IMG/VR virus record: IMGVR_UViG_3300032236_000810
Span: 1 to 40,305 of that record
DNA: 40,305 bases
Reading direction: 5' to 3' (one strand)
DNA from: a virus
The translations under genes and the position numbers were made by a program. This document shows positions 4,919 through 40,305 of the stretch, piece after piece (position 1 is the first letter of the stretch; each line of letters opens with the position of its first letter). The notes under the pieces were generated by a model, which saw only the letters and a list, made by a program, of their open reading frames with translations, searched no databases and was not told where the DNA came from.

Positions 4919-5053
4919 TTACAGACTATCTTTTTCTTTCCACAGACGATCCATATATTCATTATGTTCCTTTTTCTTTACATTATCAAGATAATCAGTA
5001 TAACAGAAGTATACAAGATATAATACAACAAAAACAGATAATACAGTAAACAT
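4919..5053 (-). CDS. small single-pass membrane protein, 44 aa
   Basis: Runs from ATG 5053 to TAA 4919, with GGAG nine bases upstream. Residues 1-18 (MFTVLSVFVVLYLVYFCY) form a membrane helix and the rest is a charged cytoplasmic-type tail. It is the first gene behind the early promoter at 5091-5119. Function unknown. Confidence 0.6.
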   Translation of the reverse strand: MFTVLSVFVVLYLVYFCYTDYLDNVKKKEHNEYMDRLWKEKDSL

Positions 5054-5090: not shown

Positions 5091-5119
5091 ATTGTCCCAT
5101 ATTCTTTAGGAAATGTCAA
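5091..5119 (-). promoter_or_regulatory. sigma70-type early promoter
   Basis: On the minus strand TTGACA (5119-5114), 17 bases, GACAAT (5096-5091). ATATGG and CCATAG flank the -10 as an inverted repeat, and the trailer CCATAGTTT is conserved with the other early promoters. Reads into the small-gene run starting at 5053. Confidence 0.85.
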
Positions 5120-5181
5120 GCATTATTTTCACTTTTTTTCAATCTTTTTTCTTGAGTGATATCAGTGGGTTACTAAGGGTA

Positions 5182-5210
5182 TTGACAAATGGTAGAGAGT
5201 GTGGTATAAT
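5182..5210 (+). promoter_or_regulatory. consensus sigma70 promoter with no gene downstream
   Basis: TTGACA (5182-5187), exactly 17 bases, TATAAT (5205-5210), with TGG in front of the -10. It is a perfect consensus promoter. Transcription would start near 5217 and run against the minus-strand genes from 5344 on. No plus-strand gene follows. The product would be an untranslated or antisense RNA whose first 60 bases contain a G-quadruplex tract. Confidence 0.75.
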
Positions 5211-5244
5211 GTATTGATTTATAATGACTTTTGACTTTATATAA

Positions 5245-5271
5245 GGGGATGATGGGGATGGGGGAGGGGGG
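5245..5271 (+). other. G-quadruplex-forming tract
   Basis: Four G runs (GGGG, GGGG, GGGGG, GGGGGG) are separated by loops of 5, 2 and 1 bases, fitting the G3+N1-7 rule. It is unique in an otherwise A+T-rich window. G is on the non-template strand of the promoter at 5182-5210, which favours a stable RNA-DNA hybrid. No gene lies in 5054-5343. Confidence 0.75.
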
Positions 5272-5343
5272 ATAGTAGAAAAAGCTCATTCTGGCCCAAA
5301 CTCTTTTTTTCAATATTTTATTTTCCCAGAAAAAAAAGCAAAT

Positions 5344-5529
5344 TTAGTCTTTTTGATTTTCAAATTTTTTTTCTGGGGCAGGAATTCCCATACCCCCTTT
5401 TCGGTAATCTTCTATGATCAACTCATAGAGTCTCTCTAGTTTGGAAGCTATCTGTACGTTGTGGTTGTCCTCTGTGCACCAACGAGGAAGACCAGATTGA
5501 ATTACCATTTGCCTCAGTTTTTCATTCAT
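5344..5529 (-). CDS. small hypothetical protein, 61 aa
   Basis: Reads MNEKLRQMVIQSGLPRWCTED... with a helix ASKLERLYELIIEDYRKGG and a lysine-rich tail. Its overall look (an MVxQSGLP-like start, then a conserved Leu-rich helix) resembles small proteins encoded by T4-like cyanophages. No function is known to me. It overlaps the upstream zinc-ribbon gene by eight bases, so the two are likely translated together. Confidence 0.6.
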   Translation of the reverse strand: MNEKLRQMVIQSGLPRWCTEDNHNVQIASKLERLYELIIEDYRKGGMGIPAPEKKFENQKD

Positions 5530-5716
5530 TATTTTTTATTCCCGTTGATTTTTCCCAATCAACCTTTCTTTTTTTGTTTCTTTCTGTTTGATATACATCA
5601 GTACTCTCTGTACCACAATAAGAACATACTGAGTATTCATACTTCAACCCATCGTTCTCTGAAAAATGATCTGATAAAAAACCTTCATTACAAATGGGAC
5701 AAATATCTCCAACCAT
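5522..5716 (-). CDS. MqsA/YgiT-type zinc-ribbon protein, 64 aa
   Basis: Two Cys pairs, C6-P-I-C9 and C31-S-Y-C34, surround a short beta-rich segment. The end has the pattern TERNKKRKVDWEK. This matches the N-terminal zinc-binding domain of the MqsA (YgiT) antitoxin family. The C-terminal helix-turn-helix of full MqsA is absent, and no toxin gene is next to it. Zinc binding is likely. A role as a stand-alone decoy or regulator is only a possibility. Confidence 0.6.
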   Translation of the reverse strand: MVGDICPICNEGFLSDHFSENDGLKYEYSVCSYCGTESTDVYQTERNKKRKVDWEKSTGIKNNE

Positions 5717-6237: not shown

Positions 6238-8499
6238 CTATGAAATAAGTCCAATAAAACGATTTAATATAACTCTGTTAGAGATTTTGTTACCAGCATA
6301 CTTGGAGAATGCAGTTACAAGGCTCTTAGTTGTTTTTGCATTGGTTTTGAATTCTTCCTCTTCATCAAAAGCACCCTTATCAGATCTAAGAAGATAGTAT
6401 TCATCAAAACCAATACTAGTGGCAACAGCATGTTTTTCCTTTTTAAATTCTTGATTCACTTTGTCATGTGATTCATAATCAGGGAAAAAAGTATATATCT
6501 TATTTTTCAACTGTTTACTACTAAGAATATAGAATCCAATGATGTTACAGTTAGTCCTCAACTTCAATAACTTAATAAATGCAGCGGTCTGATCATAAGA
6601 ACTACTAACATTCTTGATTCTTACCTGATGCCTTGTCTTAGGGTCAGTAAGCACAATAACATTAGGTCTGAAACCATTAGTAGTATAATCTCCACGACTA
6701 AGGTATTTCAAATTACCATATGCATCATAATAACCATTTGATGGATTACCTTCACCATCAGTCAAGAATACCGTATTGACTATTTGTAACCTATACTTCT
6801 TCTGAAACTGCGGAATGATTTCCATAGCACTAACAATAACCTCATTCAATGGAGTACCATTCATATAAAAGATTGATGGTGGACTAATCTTATGTGCAGA
6901 AAGTGAAAGCATTACACCGGCTGCATATGCAAACTCAGATGCTGACATACGACTAGAGAAAATGTTTACCAATCTAAAATCATGTTTCAATTGAATCTCA
7001 TTTGCATTAATTTTCTGATCAGAATTAATACCATAACTGTCAGTGAAAGAATATACTTCATATGGAATATTAACTTTCTTACAGAACATAACCAGATTCA
7101 TTAACTGCTTTACAGTATTATCAATATGTTGAGTCATAGAACCAGACCAATCCAAGAACATGATCAGACCATGTGATTTGCCATTAGGTGTTACAGTGAT
7201 CTTCTTGAAGATATCTTCATTGAACTTGTAAGAGAAAATCTTATCCATGTTCAAGTCACCTGTCTTAGCAGTAGATGCTTTCTTCATCTGATCTGCATTC
7301 TTACGTAGTTCAAACTCCTTGACCATATAAGATACAACTTTCATACTTTCCTTACGGAACTTTTGAAACCCTTCAGTGTCAACAGTTTTATAACCATAAT
7401 ATTCCATCCACTTTTTATCAATCTGAGATACATGTTCAGCATAAATCTTATATGTTTCTTTATAATCAATAATCATTGGTTCAACATTGATCTTAGGAAG
7501 ATTCATATAGAAATAATTTTCATTTGATTCAGCAAACAGTTGAGATTCATTCTCTCTGTATGCATCATCAGTATGTGAACGAATGTCTTCTTCATCTACA
7601 GATGGTTTTCTGCCGCCTTTTTCATCGATTTCTGAATTATTTTCATTAGGTTCATCACCTTCATCCTCTCCAGATTCGTTATCAGAGTTAGAGGAATCAT
7701 CTTGATTCTCTTCTTCAGTTTCCTCCCCCTCTTGACCTTTTGAAATTTCGTCAGAATTTTCACCCTCTTCAGATTCTGTTTCCTGCCTTTTGTCCGAAAC
7801 ACTTTCTTCTTCTGGTTCTTCTCCCTTTTTACCCAGAAACTTTTTACCATCCTCGGACTGTTCCTCATCGGATTCATCATAATCATCACCTTCTAGGTTT
7901 TCTAAGTCAAGTTCATTGAGTTCATCTTGGAGTTGTTTCTCCATTTCCTCTCTCATGAACTTGGTGATACGTTTTGTCAACTCAACAACTTCTTCATAAG
8001 TGTTAGTAGATTCAACTTCATCAAGAAGAACACGTTCCTCATCATTGAATTTGATGTTAAGACCTGCACCAACCTTGCAATGTAGGTTAATACGGTCAAT
8101 GAAGTTCATGACATCAAGGTTTTTACCTTCAGTTGCAAAGAAATTCTTTGCAAACAATGCATTATATGCTTTAACAAAGGAATGACGAATACCTGGATAT
8201 TTGTATTTGATCTTACGTTCAATACGAGAGTCCTCAACAACGTTAAGAACAGACATGTTAACATTGTCTTCACGTGTCTGAAGCATTTCTTCAAATGGAG
8301 TATACAGTGCATGACCAACTTCATGACCCATAAACAAGTCATATGTCCAAGAATCAATCTTAGAATCAAGAACAGGAACAGTAAGAATGCGATTCTTAAC
8401 ATCAAATGATGCCGTAGATACATTTCTTTGCTCAATGTGCAAATTCTCAGTTGCCATTAACTTAGCAAGAAGTGATTTTGTTTCAAGAAGTTGTGTCAT
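6238..8499 (-). CDS. HExxH metallopeptidase-like protein with VWA domain (CobT-like), 753 aa
   Basis: The N-terminal domain carries HEVGH (residues 59-63), a zinc-metallopeptidase motif, followed by an acidic motif VVEDSRIE (about 87-94) likely to supply further ligands. A long Asp/Glu/Ser-rich linker spans roughly residues 190-330. The C-terminal half is a von Willebrand A domain with the metal-ion site DWSGS in MFLDWSGSM. The order peptidase-like domain, acidic linker, VWA is that of CobT-like proteins, which usually work with a MoxR/CobS-type AAA+ ATPase. Large T4-like phages encode both, but the ATPase is not in this window. A chaperone-like or protein-remodelling role is inferred. It is read from the minus strand behind a GAGGAAA site. 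Confidence 0.8.
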   Translation of the reverse strand: MTQLLETKSLLAKLMATENLHIEQRNVSTASFDVKNRILTVPVLDSKIDSWTYDLFMGHEVGHALYTPFEEMLQTREDNVNMSVLNVVEDSRIERKIKYKYPGIRHSFVKAYNALFAKNFFATEGKNLDVMNFIDRINLHCKVGAGLNIKFNDEERVLLDEVESTNTYEEVVELTKRITKFMREEMEKQLQDELNELDLENLEGDDYDESDEEQSEDGKKFLGKKGEEPEEESVSDKRQETESEEGENSDEISKGQEGEETEEENQDDSSNSDNESGEDEGDEPNENNSEIDEKGGRKPSVDEEDIRSHTDDAYRENESQLFAESNENYFYMNLPKINVEPMIIDYKETYKIYAEHVSQIDKKWMEYYGYKTVDTEGFQKFRKESMKVVSYMVKEFELRKNADQMKKASTAKTGDLNMDKIFSYKFNEDIFKKITVTPNGKSHGLIMFLDWSGSMTQHIDNTVKQLMNLVMFCKKVNIPYEVYSFTDSYGINSDQKINANEIQLKHDFRLVNIFSSRMSASEFAYAAGVMLSLSAHKISPPSIFYMNGTPLNEVIVSAMEIIPQFQKKYRLQIVNTVFLTDGEGNPSNGYYDAYGNLKYLSRGDYTTNGFRPNVIVLTDPKTRHQVRIKNVSSSYDQTAAFIKLLKLRTNCNIIGFYILSSKQLKNKIYTFFPDYESHDKVNQEFKKEKHAVATSIGFDEYYLLRSDKGAFDEEEEFKTNAKTTKSLVTAFSKYAGNKISNRVILNRFIGLIS

Positions 8500-8538
8500 A
8501 ATGTAGATTTCCTCTTTGTTCTCTCAGTGTATGGTGAT

Positions 8539-8567
8539 ATTATACCATAGAAAATGGTAAAAGTCAA
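8539..8567 (-). promoter_or_regulatory. consensus sigma70 promoter
   Basis: On the minus strand TTGACT (8567-8562), 17 bases, TATAAT (8544-8539). TATGG and CCATA flank the -10 as an inverted repeat, as at 2502 and 5091. It drives the HExxH/VWA gene at 8499; its -35 lies in the last codons of the upstream gene. Confidence 0.85.
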
Positions 8568-8743
8568 TCATTTTTTCTACTTACAACAATAACATTACCT
8601 TTTACACCCATTTTCATTTCTGTAACAAGAACAGTTCCTTCATCCCAACCCAATTCTTCGATGAGTTCATCAGGAATAGTAATAAAATAAGATGGGTCTA
8701 GTTCATTATCAACTTTTATTGCACATTTATATGTTTTTCCCAT
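8564..8743 (-). CDS. AbrB/MazE-like swapped-hairpin protein, 59 aa
   Basis: The motif FITIPDELIEELGWDEGTVL followed by GNVIVVSRK is typical of the SpoVT/AbrB/MazE swapped-hairpin DNA-binding fold, which works as a dimer. Start taken at ATG 8743, coupled as TGATG with the upstream stop; a GTG one codon earlier is less likely. No toxin partner of the MazF or VapC kind is adjacent. A transcription-regulator role is inferred from the family. The stop overlaps the next promoter's -35, which may matter for its own regulation. Confidence 0.65.
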   Translation of the reverse strand: MGKTYKCAIKVDNELDPSYFITIPDELIEELGWDEGTVLVTEMKMGVKGNVIVVSRKND

Positions 8744-8919
8744 CACATATCATACCTTGGTTCATCAAGAATAAGAATCTTACCCTGATCCTTTGCCTTT
8801 TTCATCAAAGTTAACTCTTCTACGAAAGAATATAACTCATCCAGTGAAAGATCACCCAATGCAAGTTCCATTGCATAGTCATCATCTTGTTCTTCTAACC
8901 CATAAACTCTATCAAACAT
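8743..8919 (-). CDS. small acidic hypothetical protein, 58 aa
   Basis: Runs from ATG 8919 to TGA 8743. An acidic helical protein (MFDRVYGLEEQDDDYAMEL... LSLDELYSFVEELTLMKK), ending LDEPRYDM. Its ribosome-binding site (GAGGAG) lies inside the last codons of the HNH endonuclease gene, with which it overlaps by eight bases. Not recognised. Confidence 0.55.
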   Translation of the reverse strand: MFDRVYGLEEQDDDYAMELALGDLSLDELYSFVEELTLMKKAKDQGKILILDEPRYDM

Positions 8920-9388
8920 AAGTAAAATACTCCTCTTCTGCTTTCTTTCTTGATTTTATAGCATCATCAATACATGAAAATGATCCTAAATGAATTAATT
9001 TGTTTTCAACTCTAATATACGATATCCATCTATTGATTGATTTGTGCCACGTAACACCTTTATGTCCAGATTTATTATTTTTATTCAAATTTCTATTTTG
9101 TCCATTTTCTTTATTATTATTTGGACATAATCTTAAATTTTCTATTCTGTTATCATCTCTTATTCGGTTAATGTGATCTATTTGACAAGATGGTAATTCA
9201 CCAGTATGATATAACCAAACTAAACGATGTTCTCTATACTGTTTTCCGTCAATTTTTATTATAATATAACCATCAATTTTTGTTCCACATCTTATACCTT
9301 TGAGTTTATTGTGTTTATTGTCATTCTTCCAAAGAAAATATCCATTTTTATTATATTCAAATAATTCTATTAATCTTTCCTGATTCAT
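8912..9388 (-). CDS. HNH homing endonuclease with AP2-like DNA-binding domain, 158 aa
   Basis: The central segment REHRLVWLYHTGELP, CQIDHINRIRDDNRIENLR is the His-Asn-His nuclease core: a histidine in the first strand, then DHINR, then N-RIENLR. The C-terminal part (KSGHKGVTWHKSINRWISY) is an AP2-type DNA-binding domain, a combination common in free-standing phage homing endonucleases. It is wedged between two small conserved genes with a 4-base overlap upstream and an 8-base overlap downstream. It thus sits as a mobile insertion without disrupting either, and supplies the ribosome-binding site of the next gene. Confidence 0.9.
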   Translation of the reverse strand: MNQERLIELFEYNKNGYFLWKNDNKHNKLKGIRCGTKIDGYIIIKIDGKQYREHRLVWLYHTGELPSCQIDHINRIRDDNRIENLRLCPNNNKENGQNRNLNKNNKSGHKGVTWHKSINRWISYIRVENKLIHLGSFSCIDDAIKSRKKAEEEYFTYV

Positions 9389-10051: not shown

Positions 10052-10480
10052 TTATGGTAGCATGTCAGGGAATGCTTCCTTGACAAATTCATAACTTAAT
10101 CCTTGAACACCTTGATCTTTCTTGAAAATCCCGATAATAACTTCTGCTTCTCTAGGTTCAAGAGACTCAAGTAACTGAATTAGAAGTTCATTTTGTTTTC
10201 TTGGAGTTAAACTTTCAGCTTTTGAATCACCGACACGAAATAAGTATAGTTTTCTAAGTTCTGTTCCTAATTGACATACAGAAATTCCTGGTTTAGTATC
10301 AGGAACTTTATAGTTATCAGGCATTTCTTTTATTAACCACTGCCAATCGGGGTGATATGTTAGTTTTAGGGTATTGACTAGAGTTTGTGATAAATTCTTT
10401 TGTATCACTAACATTCTTTCTTGATGTGTGTTTGCCATTTCAAATTCATCAAACACTTCGTACATATTTTTATTAGACAT
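10052..10480 (-). CDS. conserved T4-like phage protein (DUF6433-like), 142 aa
   Basis: An all-helical protein with the start MSNKNMYEVFDEFEMANTHQ and a later segment LLESLEPREAEVIIGIFKKD. I recall this pattern from a conserved family in T4-like cyanophages and relatives (DUF6433-like), with no established role. It is coupled by TAATG to the RNase H gene, in the place where T4 keeps replication accessory genes such as the helicase loader. A replication role is possible on position alone. Confidence 0.65.
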   Translation of the reverse strand: MSNKNMYEVFDEFEMANTHQERMLVIQKNLSQTLVNTLKLTYHPDWQWLIKEMPDNYKVPDTKPGISVCQLGTELRKLYLFRVGDSKAESLTPRKQNELLIQLLESLEPREAEVIIGIFKKDQGVQGLSYEFVKEAFPDMLP

Positions 10481-11340
10481 TAAAATTCCTCAATAACTTC
10501 CATTAGGTTCATAAGTTTCTTTTCCATAAAGTAATTAACCAATCTATTCTTTGGTGCTGGTTTTACTTCTTCATAGGTATTTATTATTTTTTCTTTTATA
10601 TCGGTTGGGATATGTTCTAGGTCAATCAACATCTGATTTCTACTGAATCCCGTCTTGGCATAGTTATCTTTCCACTCATTCCAATCCTCAGCAAGAAGTT
10701 TGTCAAGAGTACCCTTAGTGATTGGTTTCTGTCTAAAATCGTTTACAAAACAATCTGGTGGAGAAAATACGTTAGGAATACCATCTCCCTTATCACCACG
10801 AATAATCTTTTCCTTTAGTTCTTCATGTGGGTTCTTTGAAACAAGGTATTTCTTTTGAGCAGGATTATATTGCTTAATAGAATACTTTCCTGTGTTGTAT
10901 TTCTGTAGTTGCAAGAAGTCACCATCACTAGAAAGAATAAGAACATTCTCATGTGCAACATGTCTAGGTGCCAAAGTTCCGATAATATCATCTGCTTCGG
11001 CACGTTCAACATCAATGACCTTGTATGGGAAGTTTTCTTTTAGTTCTTCCTTAAATCTAGCAAGCATATCAAAAATAAGATGCCAATCTAGATCGGACTT
11101 ATCACGTGTTTTCTTACGACCAGCTTTATAGAATGGGAAGACCTCTCTTCTCCAATACTTACGATTATCACAACACATAATAACTTCACCATATTCCTTA
11201 CGGAAGTTCTTCATGTGTGTTCTAATAATGTTAAGGATCATATGTCTAATAAGATCCTCTTGTAGTTTGTTACTCTTCTGGTTGTTGATCTGTGCCATCA
11301 ACCCAGAAATAAGTACTTGATTCAAATCAATCAATATCAT
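10480..11340 (-). CDS. rnh: RNase H / 5'-3' exonuclease (FEN family)
   Basis: This resembles T4 RNase H (about 305 aa; here 286). It removes RNA primers and adjacent DNA from lagging-strand fragments. The acidic metal-binding residues of the FEN fold can be followed: MILIDLNQ at the start, VIMCCDNRKYWRRE (about 53-67), ERAEADDIIGTLA (about 112-124), SSDGDFLQL (about 136-145) and RGDKGDGIPN (about 181-190). The order is as in the family and no key residue is missing. It is coupled by TAATG to the 142-aa gene downstream. Confidence 0.88.
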   Translation of the reverse strand: MILIDLNQVLISGLMAQINNQKSNKLQEDLIRHMILNIIRTHMKNFRKEYGEVIMCCDNRKYWRREVFPFYKAGRKKTRDKSDLDWHLIFDMLARFKEELKENFPYKVIDVERAEADDIIGTLAPRHVAHENVLILSSDGDFLQLQKYNTGKYSIKQYNPAQKKYLVSKNPHEELKEKIIRGDKGDGIPNVFSPPDCFVNDFRQKPITKGTLDKLLAEDWNEWKDNYAKTGFSRNQMLIDLEHIPTDIKEKIINTYEEVKPAPKNRLVNYFMEKKLMNLMEVIEEF

Positions 11341-16307: not shown

Positions 16308-17321
16308 TCACACCTTTTTCCATGTTATAAATTCCATCTTTGCCCTCAAGTTAACGAATGTATTTTTTTCTACTATATCTTGTATTTCACTGACAGTGAA
16401 CCCACCGTCCTTTACCATATCATTAATATCTTTCTCTTCAATCATTTCTGGCCATATCACAACATTATAATGGTTTTCTATCGCTTTGTCAAGAAGTTTC
16501 ACTATCTCCTTGTTTCTAGGTTCATTATCAAAGACCAGTGTTATCTTGGTCTTATCATATAGATCAGAAGCAGCGAATAGGTTAGAATCAGCAGTTGCAA
16601 TGGCATTTTCTAAGAAAAGAGAATCAATCGGTCCTTCTACAACATAAATCATTTCTTCTTCGTTGACTTTATCAAGACCAAAGAACTTCATACTCTCATC
16701 AACCATTTTCACGGTTATATATCTCATCTTTGACTCACCCAATGCTCTTCCTTGAAGAGCTACTAGGTTCTTATCCTTATCATAGAAAGGTATCACCAAC
16801 CTCTTGTCGTCCTCTACAAGATTCTGTTTATCTACACCAAGGTCTTCCACAAACTTTTTGAAATCTGGGGCATAGAAGAGGTTGTGGAGCGTTTCTTCTG
16901 GTATTTGACGGTTGATACAGTACTGTTTTGCAAAGTGACCATCTGGAAGTTCAGAAATGGTTTTCAGTTTCAACCTTTTCTTGAACTTTGGTTTTTGTTT
17001 TGGTATGTCAATACTATTATTTTCCGATTCAATATAATTGGGATGTTTGTCTTTATATCTTTCTAGAGTATAGTGTTGAAGAAGAGTGGGTTCAACTTTT
17101 TCTATAAAGTTGTAAAAGTTTGTAGATATACCACAGTTGTGGCAACGATAGAAATAATCATCACCCCTACGGAAAATATATCCGCGACATTTGGTTTTGT
17201 TTTTTTGGCTGTCACCACAGATAGGACATCTAAAATTGTATAGGTCTGGTTTTTTCTGTGTAAATGCAGTAAGTTTAGGGGAAAGTTGCAGAAGGAACTT
17301 TCTATCAATATATACACTCAT
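16308..17321 (-). CDS. 61: DNA primase (T4 gp61-like)
   Basis: Makes RNA primers for lagging-strand synthesis together with the gp41 helicase. An N-terminal zinc-binding domain has C32-P-I-C35 and C60-H-N-C63. The catalytic TOPRIM fold is marked by YVVEGPIDSLFLEN (E-G and D-S) and the acidic LVFDNEPRNK. Length 337 is close to T4 gp61. The partner helicase gene is in the same window (38494-40305), as a split gene. Confidence 0.9.
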   Translation of the reverse strand: MSVYIDRKFLLQLSPKLTAFTQKKPDLYNFRCPICGDSQKNKTKCRGYIFRRGDDYFYRCHNCGISTNFYNFIEKVEPTLLQHYTLERYKDKHPNYIESENNSIDIPKQKPKFKKRLKLKTISELPDGHFAKQYCINRQIPEETLHNLFYAPDFKKFVEDLGVDKQNLVEDDKRLVIPFYDKDKNLVALQGRALGESKMRYITVKMVDESMKFFGLDKVNEEEMIYVVEGPIDSLFLENAIATADSNLFAASDLYDKTKITLVFDNEPRNKEIVKLLDKAIENHYNVVIWPEMIEEKDINDMVKDGGFTVSEIQDIVEKNTFVNLRAKMEFITWKKV

Positions 17322-35976: not shown

Positions 35977-36005
35977 ATTATACCACAAAATATATATTTT
36001 GTCAA
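35977..36005 (-). promoter_or_regulatory. perfect consensus sigma70 promoter
   Basis: On the minus strand TTGACA (36005-36000), 17 bases, TATAAT (35982-35977), with TGG before the -10. Reads into the Dam gene and on into the sugar block. It lies back to back with the plus-strand late promoter at 36012-36019. Confidence 0.88.
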
Positions 36006-37390: not shown

Positions 37391-38494
37391 TTATCGTATG
37401 ATATCAATATCCTTTCCAGAAGTCCAGACCTCTAGTTCGGTTCTCAAACGACCTTCTGATTTCAATGTTTCGAATCTATTAATGGCTTTCTTTCTCCACC
37501 ATTCAATGATATTTGCAATATCAAATCTGTCATAATTATCATCGGGTATTAACATATCAGTCTTATTATTAACATAATCAATATAGTTTTTGAAACCATA
37601 ATTGGATGTATAATATCTTTTCTTTTCTGTTAGATTTTTAGCATTATCAATCACTTCCATGAAATGATCATACTCAGGAGAACCTTTTAATGACTGTTTG
37701 GTCAAAGATAAAATCTTTTGTGAAATCTTTAGTTTTCTACTAGAAGCATTATCATCAACAATATCACCAATTCTGCTTTCAACAAACGTAACCAAATCAT
37801 AATATGGTTTACCATGCATCATTGGAAGGAAATCACTATCAGTCAAACCCCTAAATCTAATGTAAGGTTTCATTCCATCATATTGTGATCCAACTTTAGA
37901 AGTTCCATACAAACTAGTTGTCTCAAACAAACAAAGATTCATATTATATTTCTTGTTACAGATTTCTCTTACTTGGTGTGAACAACAAATAGCAGCCAAC
38001 AACTTACCACCAAGATAATTATACCCAAAAGGTTGGGCAGGAACAATCACAAAACCCATCATAGTTGCGTTATTGAAACGAGAAGCACCTTCTTTGGTTT
38101 GTGTGAACACTTGACCCAACAATTCGTTACGGGGTTTACAATTGATTATAGGAGATCCTAAACGAATAAATCCAAGATACTTACCCGTTTTCTTTTCTTG
38201 AACAGCTAGACGAATATTCCTACCAACAGGAGGTATATTGATATGTGTTGAAGTAATACTGTTTAGTGTTTCCCACAATTGAGATGGAATTTCAACCAAT
38301 TCAATATCCATATCACTAGGATGCATCGTAAAATCATCAAACAATTCATCTTCTGGAGGGAACAGAGGATTTGAAGGAATCTCAGCGAGAGCTGCTAATT
38401 TCTGGTCTTTCATATAATCATCAATACGTTCAAAACTACCATAGTAATCTTCAAACACTTTCGAAATATAGATTCCATCTTCTTTAGTTAACAT
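37391..38494 (-). CDS. DruA-like (DUF4338) protein, 367 aa
   Basis: GRNIRLAVQEKKTGKYLGFI (about 91-110), RLGSPIINCKPRNELLGQ, MGFVIVPAQPFGYNYLGGK (146-164) and LFETTSLYGTS (189-199) follow the DUF4338 fold that defines DruA of the Druantia anti-phage system. DruA homologues also occur as stand-alone phage proteins. The partner DruB-E genes are absent, so this is not a complete Druantia system. The role in a phage is open: decoy, superinfection exclusion or DNA handling. It is coupled by TAATG to the 3' half of the helicase gene. Confidence 0.7.
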   Translation of the reverse strand: MLTKEDGIYISKVFEDYYGSFERIDDYMKDQKLAALAEIPSNPLFPPEDELFDDFTMHPSDMDIELVEIPSQLWETLNSITSTHINIPPVGRNIRLAVQEKKTGKYLGFIRLGSPIINCKPRNELLGQVFTQTKEGASRFNNATMMGFVIVPAQPFGYNYLGGKLLAAICCSHQVREICNKKYNMNLCLFETTSLYGTSKVGSQYDGMKPYIRFRGLTDSDFLPMMHGKPYYDLVTFVESRIGDIVDDNASSRKLKISQKILSLTKQSLKGSPEYDHFMEVIDNAKNLTEKKRYYTSNYGFKNYIDYVNNKTDMLIPDDNYDRFDIANIIEWWRKKAINRFETLKSEGRLRTELEVWTSGKDIDIIR

Positions 38495-38901
38495 TATACT
38501 TTAAATCCTTCAAATTTTTTCTTTGGGTTACTACTTGATTGAACTTGTCCAACATCAACTAGATCTTGTTGTCCAGAATCCTCTACATCATATAATCTCA
38601 TTTTACTTCTGTCAATACCTAATGCAAATCTTTTATATGATGTTAGATCTGAATACCTATTCTTCAATTGTTTAACCATAATCTGACCTAGTTCTTCTAA
38701 CTCTTCCGAAGACACCAACGCAAACATTAAATCTGCCGTAGCCGGTAGACCAAACGACTCGGAAGTGTCTTCAAGACCTGGATCGGACGATGAATTATGT
38801 GTCAATATATCATTAGCATAAAATAAATGATTACCAGAAACTTCAATATCAATTACATCATTTACTGTTAATTCTTTAATAGAAATTATTTTTTCAATCA
38901 C
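38494..38901 (-). CDS. 41: gp41 helicase C-terminal part with C-intein (split intein), 135 aa
   Basis: Residues 1-36 are a C-intein ending HLFYANDILTHN, with the terminal His-Asn and a Ser as the +1 residue. Residues 37-135 (SSSDPGLEDTSESFGLP...) are the C-terminal part of a DnaB-type helicase, T4 gp41. Begins at GTG 38901, behind GAGGG. The N-part is at 39606-40305. The arrangement matches the gp41-1 split inteins known from metagenomic T4-like phages, where N- and C-inteins from separate polypeptides join the helicase by trans-splicing. Confidence 0.9.
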   Translation of the reverse strand: MIEKIISIKELTVNDVIDIEVSGNHLFYANDILTHNSSSDPGLEDTSESFGLPATADLMFALVSSEELEELGQIMVKQLKNRYSDLTSYKRFALGIDRSKMRLYDVEDSGQQDLVDVGQVQSSSNPKKKFEGFKV

Positions 38902-39601
38902 AATATACCCTCATATTCAACTTTGGATGGAAAAGTCCTGGATTTGACCGGCACCATTTCGTTATTCTATTATAGTTGGATTTTCCACCAAGAAATTTTA
39001 ATAATTGATCTGTTTCATGTTTTTTCCCATCGGTATATTCTATTTTCCACATTTTAACATTATGTGGCCTATTATTTTCATAATATTTCCTTTTAATATT
39101 ACCCAAATGGTTCTTAGTTTCATCACTGTGTTTGTGTCCCCAAGAAGGGTTAATCCATCCAGAATTATATTTTTCTTTTAAGGATGCACTAATTTTTTCA
39201 GATGTATACTTACTCATATTAATATTTTTATTCCAAACATCTCCATTCTTTTTATTTTCATTTATAATAGTGATATCATCTTCAGTAAATTCTGATTTAT
39301 TTTTTTGTAAATCTTCATACCTCATATTATATCCATAACCATCTTTATAATGACTGTTATAAAATTTAATGTAATGGTTTTCTCTAGAAAACGAATCATC
39401 ATTTAATACTTCTTCTAATAATTCTATTGTAAAGTTAATTTTCCCATAATAGATTAAATCAATACATAATTCTCTATTAACACCCTTCCTACCCATTCTA
39501 AAATGTTCATCTAATCTTTTTTCTAATGTTTTATTAGTTTGTCCGATATAAATTTTATTAGGTAATAAAAATGTATTGGTGATTTTGTATATTCTAATCA
39601 T
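38894..39601 (-). CDS. GIY-YIG homing endonuclease inside the fractured helicase gene, 235 aa
   Basis: IRIYKITNTFLLPNKIYIGQ at the start is the GIY-YIG pair; Arg in LEKRLDEHF and Glu in SRENHYIKFYN are catalytic. The middle HKHSDETKNHLGNIKRKYY is a NUMOD3-type DNA-binding element, and the end resembles other homing-endonuclease binding domains. It lies between the two halves of the gp41 gene on the same strand, four bases after the N-part stop and overlapping the C-part by eight bases. Presumably it cuts intein-free gp41 genes and spreads the whole unit. Confidence 0.92.
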   Translation of the reverse strand: MIRIYKITNTFLLPNKIYIGQTNKTLEKRLDEHFRMGRKGVNRELCIDLIYYGKINFTIELLEEVLNDDSFSRENHYIKFYNSHYKDGYGYNMRYEDLQKNKSEFTEDDITIINENKKNGDVWNKNINMSKYTSEKISASLKEKYNSGWINPSWGHKHSDETKNHLGNIKRKYYENNRPHNVKMWKIEYTDGKKHETDQLLKFLGGKSNYNRITKWCRSNPGLFHPKLNMRVYCD

Positions 39602-39605
39602 ATTC

Positions 39606-40305
39606 TCATATTGTTGTTTGTATAGAAGATATATTTACATATAAACCGTCACCAATAGATAGTCCAGTTTTTATGGATTTTTCTCCCCCAATCGTTGGAA
39701 AAAGGTGTTCTTCAGAACATATTATTTTTTTACCACTTTCGGTAATAATTTCATATGTTTTTTTCTTTTGTATATCAAAAACGTTTTCAACTCTATTATA
39801 TCCGGTATTCGATAAAACATAATCACCAACATTAATATCCTTTATTTCTATACTACCTTTATTTTTTTCTCTGACGATGGTGTCGAGACTAAGACAGAAT
39901 CCGCTTCTTGTAGTTTGTGTAGCTGAAACTATAGGTACGGTATACTCGACAGCAAGACCTCTCAACTCTTCAGCAATTGACTTGACATATGTGTATGAAT
40001 TGATAGACGCACCAGGTTTGATACGAGAAGAAGTACAGATGTTAAGATAGTCAATAAAAATAATATCAGGTTTGAAATTACGCTTGAGATTAAGTTCATT
40101 TAATAATGCTCTAAAATGTGTTACAGATGCAGATGCAGTTGGGTATTCCTTGATAATCAACTTACCAGTAGTTTTCTTCTTAACTCTTGCAACTTTCTTA
40201 TCATAATCTTCTTTAGATAACTTCTCAAGTTCATCAACTTTAACATTTAAAAGATTAGCATCTATTCTTTCTGCAATCTTCTCTTCCGCCATCTCTAATG
40301 TAATA
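39606..40305 (-). CDS. 41: gp41 replicative helicase N-terminal part with N-intein (partial at window edge)
   Basis: The gene continues beyond the window; upstream codons still read ITLEMAEEKIAERIDA, DnaB-type helicase sequence. KPDIIFIDYLNI is the Walker B region and SATQTTRSGF the following motif, ending at the splice point. The N-intein (96 residues) starts with Cys at codon 39896-39894: CLSLDTIVREK..., with SGKKIICSEEHLFPT as the conserved block B region (catalytic His). It ends with stop at 39606. Together with 38494-38901 it rebuilds gp41. Confidence 0.92.
   Translation of the reverse strand, partial: ITLEMAEEKIAERIDANLLNVKVDELEKLSKEDYDKKVARVKKKTTGKLIIKEYPTASASVTHFRALLNELNLKRNFKPDIIFIDYLNICTSSRIKPGASINSYTYVKSIAEELRGLAVEYTVPIVSATQTTRSGFCLSLDTIVREKNKGSIEIKDINVGDYVLSNTGYNRVENVFDIQKKKTYEIITESGKKIICSEEHLFPTIGGEKSIKTGLSIGDGLYVNISSIQTTI

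Follow-up and report, generated by a model that had tools for sequence, protein, structure and literature searches.

A perfect sigma-70 promoter that leads to no gene is followed closely by a strong G-quadruplex motif in a 40,305-nt viral record (IMG/VR, IMGVR_UViG_3300032236_000810; below, "the window" is this whole stretch as analysed). The parts of the unit can be read in the sequence and are conserved in one relative, the G-rich part energetically prefers an RNA:DNA hybrid, and the same window holds RNase H, primase, and helicase genes. Together these suggest a non-coding element in which an early promoter drives formation of an R-loop and quadruplex; its most likely use, proposed tentatively, would be to prime early DNA replication. 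The features concerned are listed here, with conservation given relative to L006, the one other contig found to hold the element.

5091-5119, minus strand: divergent promoter-like site, TTGACA-17-GACAAT, facing small leftward genes; unchanged in L006
5182-5210, plus strand: perfect sigma-70 promoter with extended -10, TGGTATAAT; 28/29 identical in L006, the sole change being in the spacer
5211-5244, plus strand: leader of the transcript, whose start is predicted near 5217, without a conserved ORF; 34/34 identical in L006
5245-5271, plus strand: G-quadruplex motif GGGGATGATGGGGATGGGGGAGGGGGG, in the non-template strand and the RNA, G4-N5-G4-N2-G5-A-G6
5279-5283, plus strand: A5 tract just 3' of the G runs, also present in L006; resembles the A5 after G6 in the ColE1 G-tract stretch
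5304-5310, plus strand: T7 tract, candidate 3' end of a short RNA by likeness to CSB II; the surrounding 5293-5330 is 36/38 identical in L006
5325-5377, no strand assigned: perfect inverted repeat of 13 bp, CCCAGAAAAAAAA / TTTTTTTTCTGGG, which extends over the 3' end of the convergent gene and is not perfect in L006
5344-5529, minus strand: convergent small gene, 61 aa, of no known family
10480-11340, minus strand: homologue of T4 RNase H (5_3_exonuc_N + RNaseH_C), an enzyme type suited to trimming an R-loop primer

Promoter and Quadruplex Motif

Almost all genes in the window are on the minus strand, and four of the five perfect TTGACA-17-TATAAT promoters in the record are on that strand too. 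Three of these (at 36005, 11766, and 9792) have a long ORF beginning 27-34 nt past TATAAT, and the fourth (16492) lies inside the primase gene. The only perfect promoter on the plus strand is the one at 5182, in which 17 nt separate TTGACA (5182-5187) from TATAAT (5205-5210) and TGG precedes the latter, making an extended -10. It lies in a gap of ~290 bp that follows the 61-aa gene (5344-5529) and precedes the next leftward gene, at 4919-5053. The first-pass annotation had described it as an orphan, and this is borne out: no plus-strand ORF of at least 50 codons starts within 250 nt past it, and the first such ORF beyond is antisense to minus-strand genes.

The quadruplex motif begins 34 nt past the promoter. 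Its G runs, at 5245-5248, 5254-5257, 5260-5264, and 5266-5271, would occupy about +28 to +55 if the RNA starts near 5217, in agreement with the earlier claim of four G runs within the first ~55 bases. Whether runs of at least three or at least four are counted, this is the only such motif on either strand of the window; in simulated sequence with the same dinucleotides as the window, motifs built on runs of three average 0.02 per window, and 300 simulations produced no motif built on runs of four. G4Hunter scores it at 2.76, with 1.72 (absolute value) for the next best site in the window. A single randomly placed motif would have a chance of ~0.007 of landing no more than 110 nt past any of the perfect promoters, so that the joint placement is unlikely to be accidental, though both the choice of site and the test are post hoc.

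RNA folding was no better than for shuffled sequence, there was no Rfam match, no antisense promoter-like site is listed over the leader, and no canonical terminator was found. The inverted repeat at 5325-5377 was considered as a terminator and rejected, having no U run past the stem and being imperfect in L006. A T-rich 22-nt direct repeat (86%; 5132-5153 and 5303-5324 on the plus strand, 171 nt apart) brackets the promoter and quadruplex, and may be a chance product of low complexity.

Stability of the Hybrid

R-loop propensity was scored as RNA:DNA minus DNA:DNA nearest-neighbour energy, using standard published parameters, in windows of 30 nt on both strands. The score at 5242 (plus strand) is -17.5 kcal/mol, against -9.8 for the next best site in the 40-kb window and a mean of 0.9 (sd 2.7). 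Among 57 promoter-like sites the leader of the 5182 promoter is an outlier, 7 sd from the rest. The first-pass suggestion that the G-rich non-template DNA favours R-loops is thus strongly supported by calculation, this site being the best in the window by almost two-fold. If the element is transcribed, an R-loop or quadruplex would probably form. By the same measure the G-tract stretch of ColE1 (taken as its origin) scores -9.7, within the ten best of that plasmid, and T4 oriF, which is not G-rich, scores -2.4; on these scores the element is built like a G-tract R-loop and not like T4 oriF.

Distribution and Conservation

The only other contig holding the element, L006/L025, is a very near relative from IMG/VR (metagenome 3300013093). 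Scans of IMG/VR and bacterial genomes for the exact element matched this contig alone, as did the flanking small proteins when used as anchors for further relatives. DNA similarity at the locus among phages and plasmids was limited to short promoter-like or A+T-rich pieces, with no real match, and a broad IMG/VR scan for a promoter followed by G runs gave chance or unrelated cases and no family among the matches listed. More distant relatives that share the peptidase gene, at 43-63% identity, do not have the motif. Even a three-run G motif is missing from six of the seven complete T4-type genomes compared (T4 itself and six Kyanoviridae); the seventh has one.

Conservation between the window and L006 is uneven along the element. 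The promoter and leader differ by one change in 63 nt (62/63 identical), while the adjacent spacers have many changes and indels. In the quadruplex region 22 of 25 positions are identical, with a 2-nt indel; all four G runs are kept with different linkers, and G4Hunter again gives 2.76. The following 21 nt match at only 14 positions. Beyond, between variable stretches, the 38-nt segment around T7 (5293-5330) has 36 identical positions and is followed by a 23-nt indel. For comparison, divergence at fourfold sites is 11% over all compared genes and 6.3% (26/415) in the nearest ones. One change in 63 nt has P 0.005 at the overall rate and P ~0.09 at the local rate, so that conservation of promoter and leader appears unlikely to be accidental by the first and only suggestive by the second. 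Overall, the pattern lends modest support to a function for the element.

A coding role for the leader was also considered, in the frame beginning ATGATG, and rejected. The frame stops after 8 codons in the window and is open for ~37 codons in L006, and differences between the two are mostly at first and second codon positions; the early stop and this distribution indicate that coding is not conserved. Between the counterparts of 5344-5529 and 5522-5716, L006 has ~200 bp (7200-7400) with a small ORF (7220-7399) that is missing in the window.

Comparison with Known Priming Systems

The first-pass annotation had proposed an R-loop origin on the model of T4 oriF. T4 origins form promoter-made R-loops that are very likely processed by the phage RNase H, and oriF and oriG depend on both a MotA middle promoter and an A+T-rich unwinding element (PMC3016281). 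The general scheme is supported in part: the window encodes a T4-type replication system (the RNase H homologue at 10480-11340, a primase at 16308-17321, and a gp41-like helicase), R-loop propensity is high, and a promoter-driven R-loop is what is proposed here. The specific analogy with oriF is weak. By inspection the 5182 promoter has no MotA middle promoter or TGCTT box, its -35 being a perfect sigma-70 TTGACA; its RNA is not an mRNA; it has a G-rich stretch in place of an A+T-rich unwinding element; and the hybrid-stability score of oriF is low. Lacking the middle promoter, the element is not classed with T4 oriF. In the related phage Melnitz, middle promoters could not be identified (PMC9004378).

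Two general signs of an origin were looked for, and neither supports or, with only 5 kb lying on one side of the element, precludes one. GC skew at fourfold sites is -0.11 to the left of the element and -0.15 to the right (long genes; P 0.77), with no switch in strand composition of the sort that is common, though not obligatory, at origins. A jump in skew at all third codon positions (0.39 vs 0.12) was rejected as an origin signature; since it vanishes at fourfold sites, it reflects amino-acid and codon content. An A+T-rich unwinding element at the site was likewise rejected, the A+T-rich flanks being at the 8-20th percentile of duplex stability (5296-5375 at the 8-19th), which is not exceptional in an A+T-rich genome. 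The missing fourfold-skew signature, these ordinary flanks, and the existence of only two sequences are the reasons that origin function is put forward as a possibility and not as the probable case.

Systems that depend on a G tract are closer analogues than T4 oriF. RNA II of ColE1 is a folded RNA of several hundred nt under the control of an antisense RNA I. In this plasmid a promoter-made RNA forms a lasting hybrid at a guanine-rich stretch, which is essential for the R-loop and for replication, and the origin is downstream of that stretch (PMC6317783). A guanine-rich stretch favouring a persistent hybrid is present, by calculation, at 5242, and in both ColE1 and the element G6 is followed by A5 within ~12 nt. 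Unlike RNA II, however, the predicted RNA is short (~95 nt) with structure no better than shuffled sequence, there is no antisense promoter over it, and the two sequences are not related; as these RNA II and RNA I features are absent, the element is not filed as a ColE1 origin.

In mitochondrial DNA, CSB II consists of G5AG7 followed by T6, and a hybrid quadruplex there stops transcription (PMC5027508); its R-loops are trimmed by RNase H1 to give replication primers (PMC6317783). The element has a comparable discontinuous tract in the non-template strand, G5AG6 at 5260-5271, with T7 downstream at 5304-5310, both kept in L006. The arrangement of promoter, short RNA, G5-A-G6 (G5AG7 in mtDNA), and T tract, with a candidate hybrid quadruplex and possible processing of the RNase H type, is that of the mitochondrial LSP-CSB II region (PMC5027508, PMC6317783). 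The element differs in its predicted reliance on the host multi-subunit polymerase instead of POLRMT, in having two extra upstream G runs, and in spacing: 32 nt lie between its G and T tracts, and the products of CSB II end ~16-23 nt downstream. Its primer function, moreover, is only proposed.

A priming cycle consistent with these parts can be outlined, each step of which has a precedent in the literature. Early in infection, host RNA polymerase would start near 5217 and transcribe the G-rich 5245-5271. The G-rich RNA would stay on the C-rich template while the displaced G strand, alone or together with the RNA, folded into a quadruplex that locked the hybrid. Transcription would tend to end near the T7 tract, ~90-95 nt from the start. 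The hybrid RNA could then be trimmed by the phage T4-type RNase H, with the A5 tract as one possible place, and be extended rightward by the phage polymerase. A broader version, more doubtful, is that a Kyanoviridae-like T4-type phage begins to replicate at an early non-coding transcript made for this purpose, with a G-quadruplex anchoring its hybrid. This would be a counterpart of CSB II in a bacterial virus, replacing MotA/unwinding-element origins in phages without middle promoters. At ~130 bp the element is a clonable candidate, with which it can be asked whether a G-quadruplex-anchored R-loop primes phage replication, and through which priming in ColE1, mitochondria, and phages would be connected.

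Other Possible Roles

The same promoter could serve a short (~95-160 nt) early non-coding regulatory RNA, whose G-rich stretch would act in trans, by pairing with C-rich targets or by binding a host RNA-binding protein or the anti-Shine-Dalgarno sequence, or else in cis on the convergent mRNA. A strong early-type promoter without an ORF, a conserved leader and T tract, and a G-rich stretch containing GGAGG and several GGA motifs would all suit such an RNA, but it has no Rfam match, folding better than shuffled sequence, or canonical terminator, and the segment adjoining the G runs is poorly conserved (14/21); this reading is considered unlikely. Its cis form had been raised in the first-pass annotation as antisense RNA against the minus-strand genes beyond 5344. 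With read-through the transcript would indeed overlap the gene at 5344-5529 in antisense, at its 3' end, but the conserved part of the element precedes the convergent gene, and a cis-antisense role is not favoured for this reason. Several distant relatives raise instead the possibility of an ordinary early-gene promoter, here a relic whose gene has been lost with a G-rich leftover behind it. Their strong sigma-70 promoters, on the same strand downstream of the peptidase gene, drive small early genes; in L009, L010, L016, and L019 the leaders behind such promoters have a ribosome binding site and ATG 25-40 nt on, and the window has AAGGGGATGATG at the same distance. This makes a relic a serious rival, and the ~37-codon ATGATG frame of L006 also speaks for it. 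Against it, the frame ends after 8 codons in the window and its coding is not conserved, promoter and leader have been kept in L006 (62/63), and chance fails to account for the one strong quadruplex lying at exactly this place; on balance it is unlikely.

Position suggests a third role, as a barrier. The element sits between the end of a leftward operon (nrd-peptidase) and the next leftward promoter, and a convergent promoter with its R-loop or quadruplex might keep transcription of that operon out of the divergent promoter (5119) and the early genes that follow it. An imperfect terminator-like inverted repeat lies alongside; an ordinary terminator would be simpler, however, and more distant relatives have no homologous arrangement, leaving this quite unlikely. 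Least probable, and very unlikely, is a quadruplex that promotes recombination when opened by a dedicated transcript. The model would be the gonococcal pilE quadruplex, which depends on a non-coding transcript acting in cis; this RNA is proposed to pair with the C-rich strand (PMC3547852). The geometry is the same, with a non-coding promoter beside the quadruplex, a G-rich non-template strand, and a hybrid on the C-rich strand (PMC3547852), and indels distinguish the flanks in the window from those in L006. The pilE quadruplex serves gene conversion, though; no repeated or silent donor copies were seen near the element, and ordinary phage drift also explains the indels. Priming of replication, with the reservations given above, is retained as the preferred reading.

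Phage Affiliation and Gene Content

The window represents part of an incomplete genome, that of a Kyanoviridae-like T4-type phage. The primase (16308-17321) is 44% identical to that of Methylophilales phage Melnitz, and the gene order primase-NrdA-NrdB is common to the window, Melnitz, and cyanophages. The IMG/VR sample numbers of relatives suggest a freshwater phage.

Several other loci are worth recording. The gp41-like DnaB helicase gene (38494-40304, minus strand) is broken into three ORFs: 39606-40304 corresponds to the N-exon and the N-part of an intein, 38494-38901 to the intein C-part and the C-exon, and between these pieces is a free-standing group I intron-type endonuclease (38894-39601). 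The whole looks like a fractured helicase gene with a split intein; fractured genes with gp41 split inteins are a reported kind. Adjoining it, a 367-aa protein (37391-38494, minus strand) matches the DruA (Druantia) Pfam family and phrog_19197. An HNH/AP2 endonuclease ORF at 8912-9388 (minus strand) is precisely absent from three near relatives (L006, L007, and L022), where the alignment jumps from 8919 to 9387, as expected of a recent homing-endonuclease insertion or loss. Finally, a 39-bp early promoter cassette is found twice in the window, at 2494-2531 and 8531-8568 (minus strand), the copies being ~90% identical.
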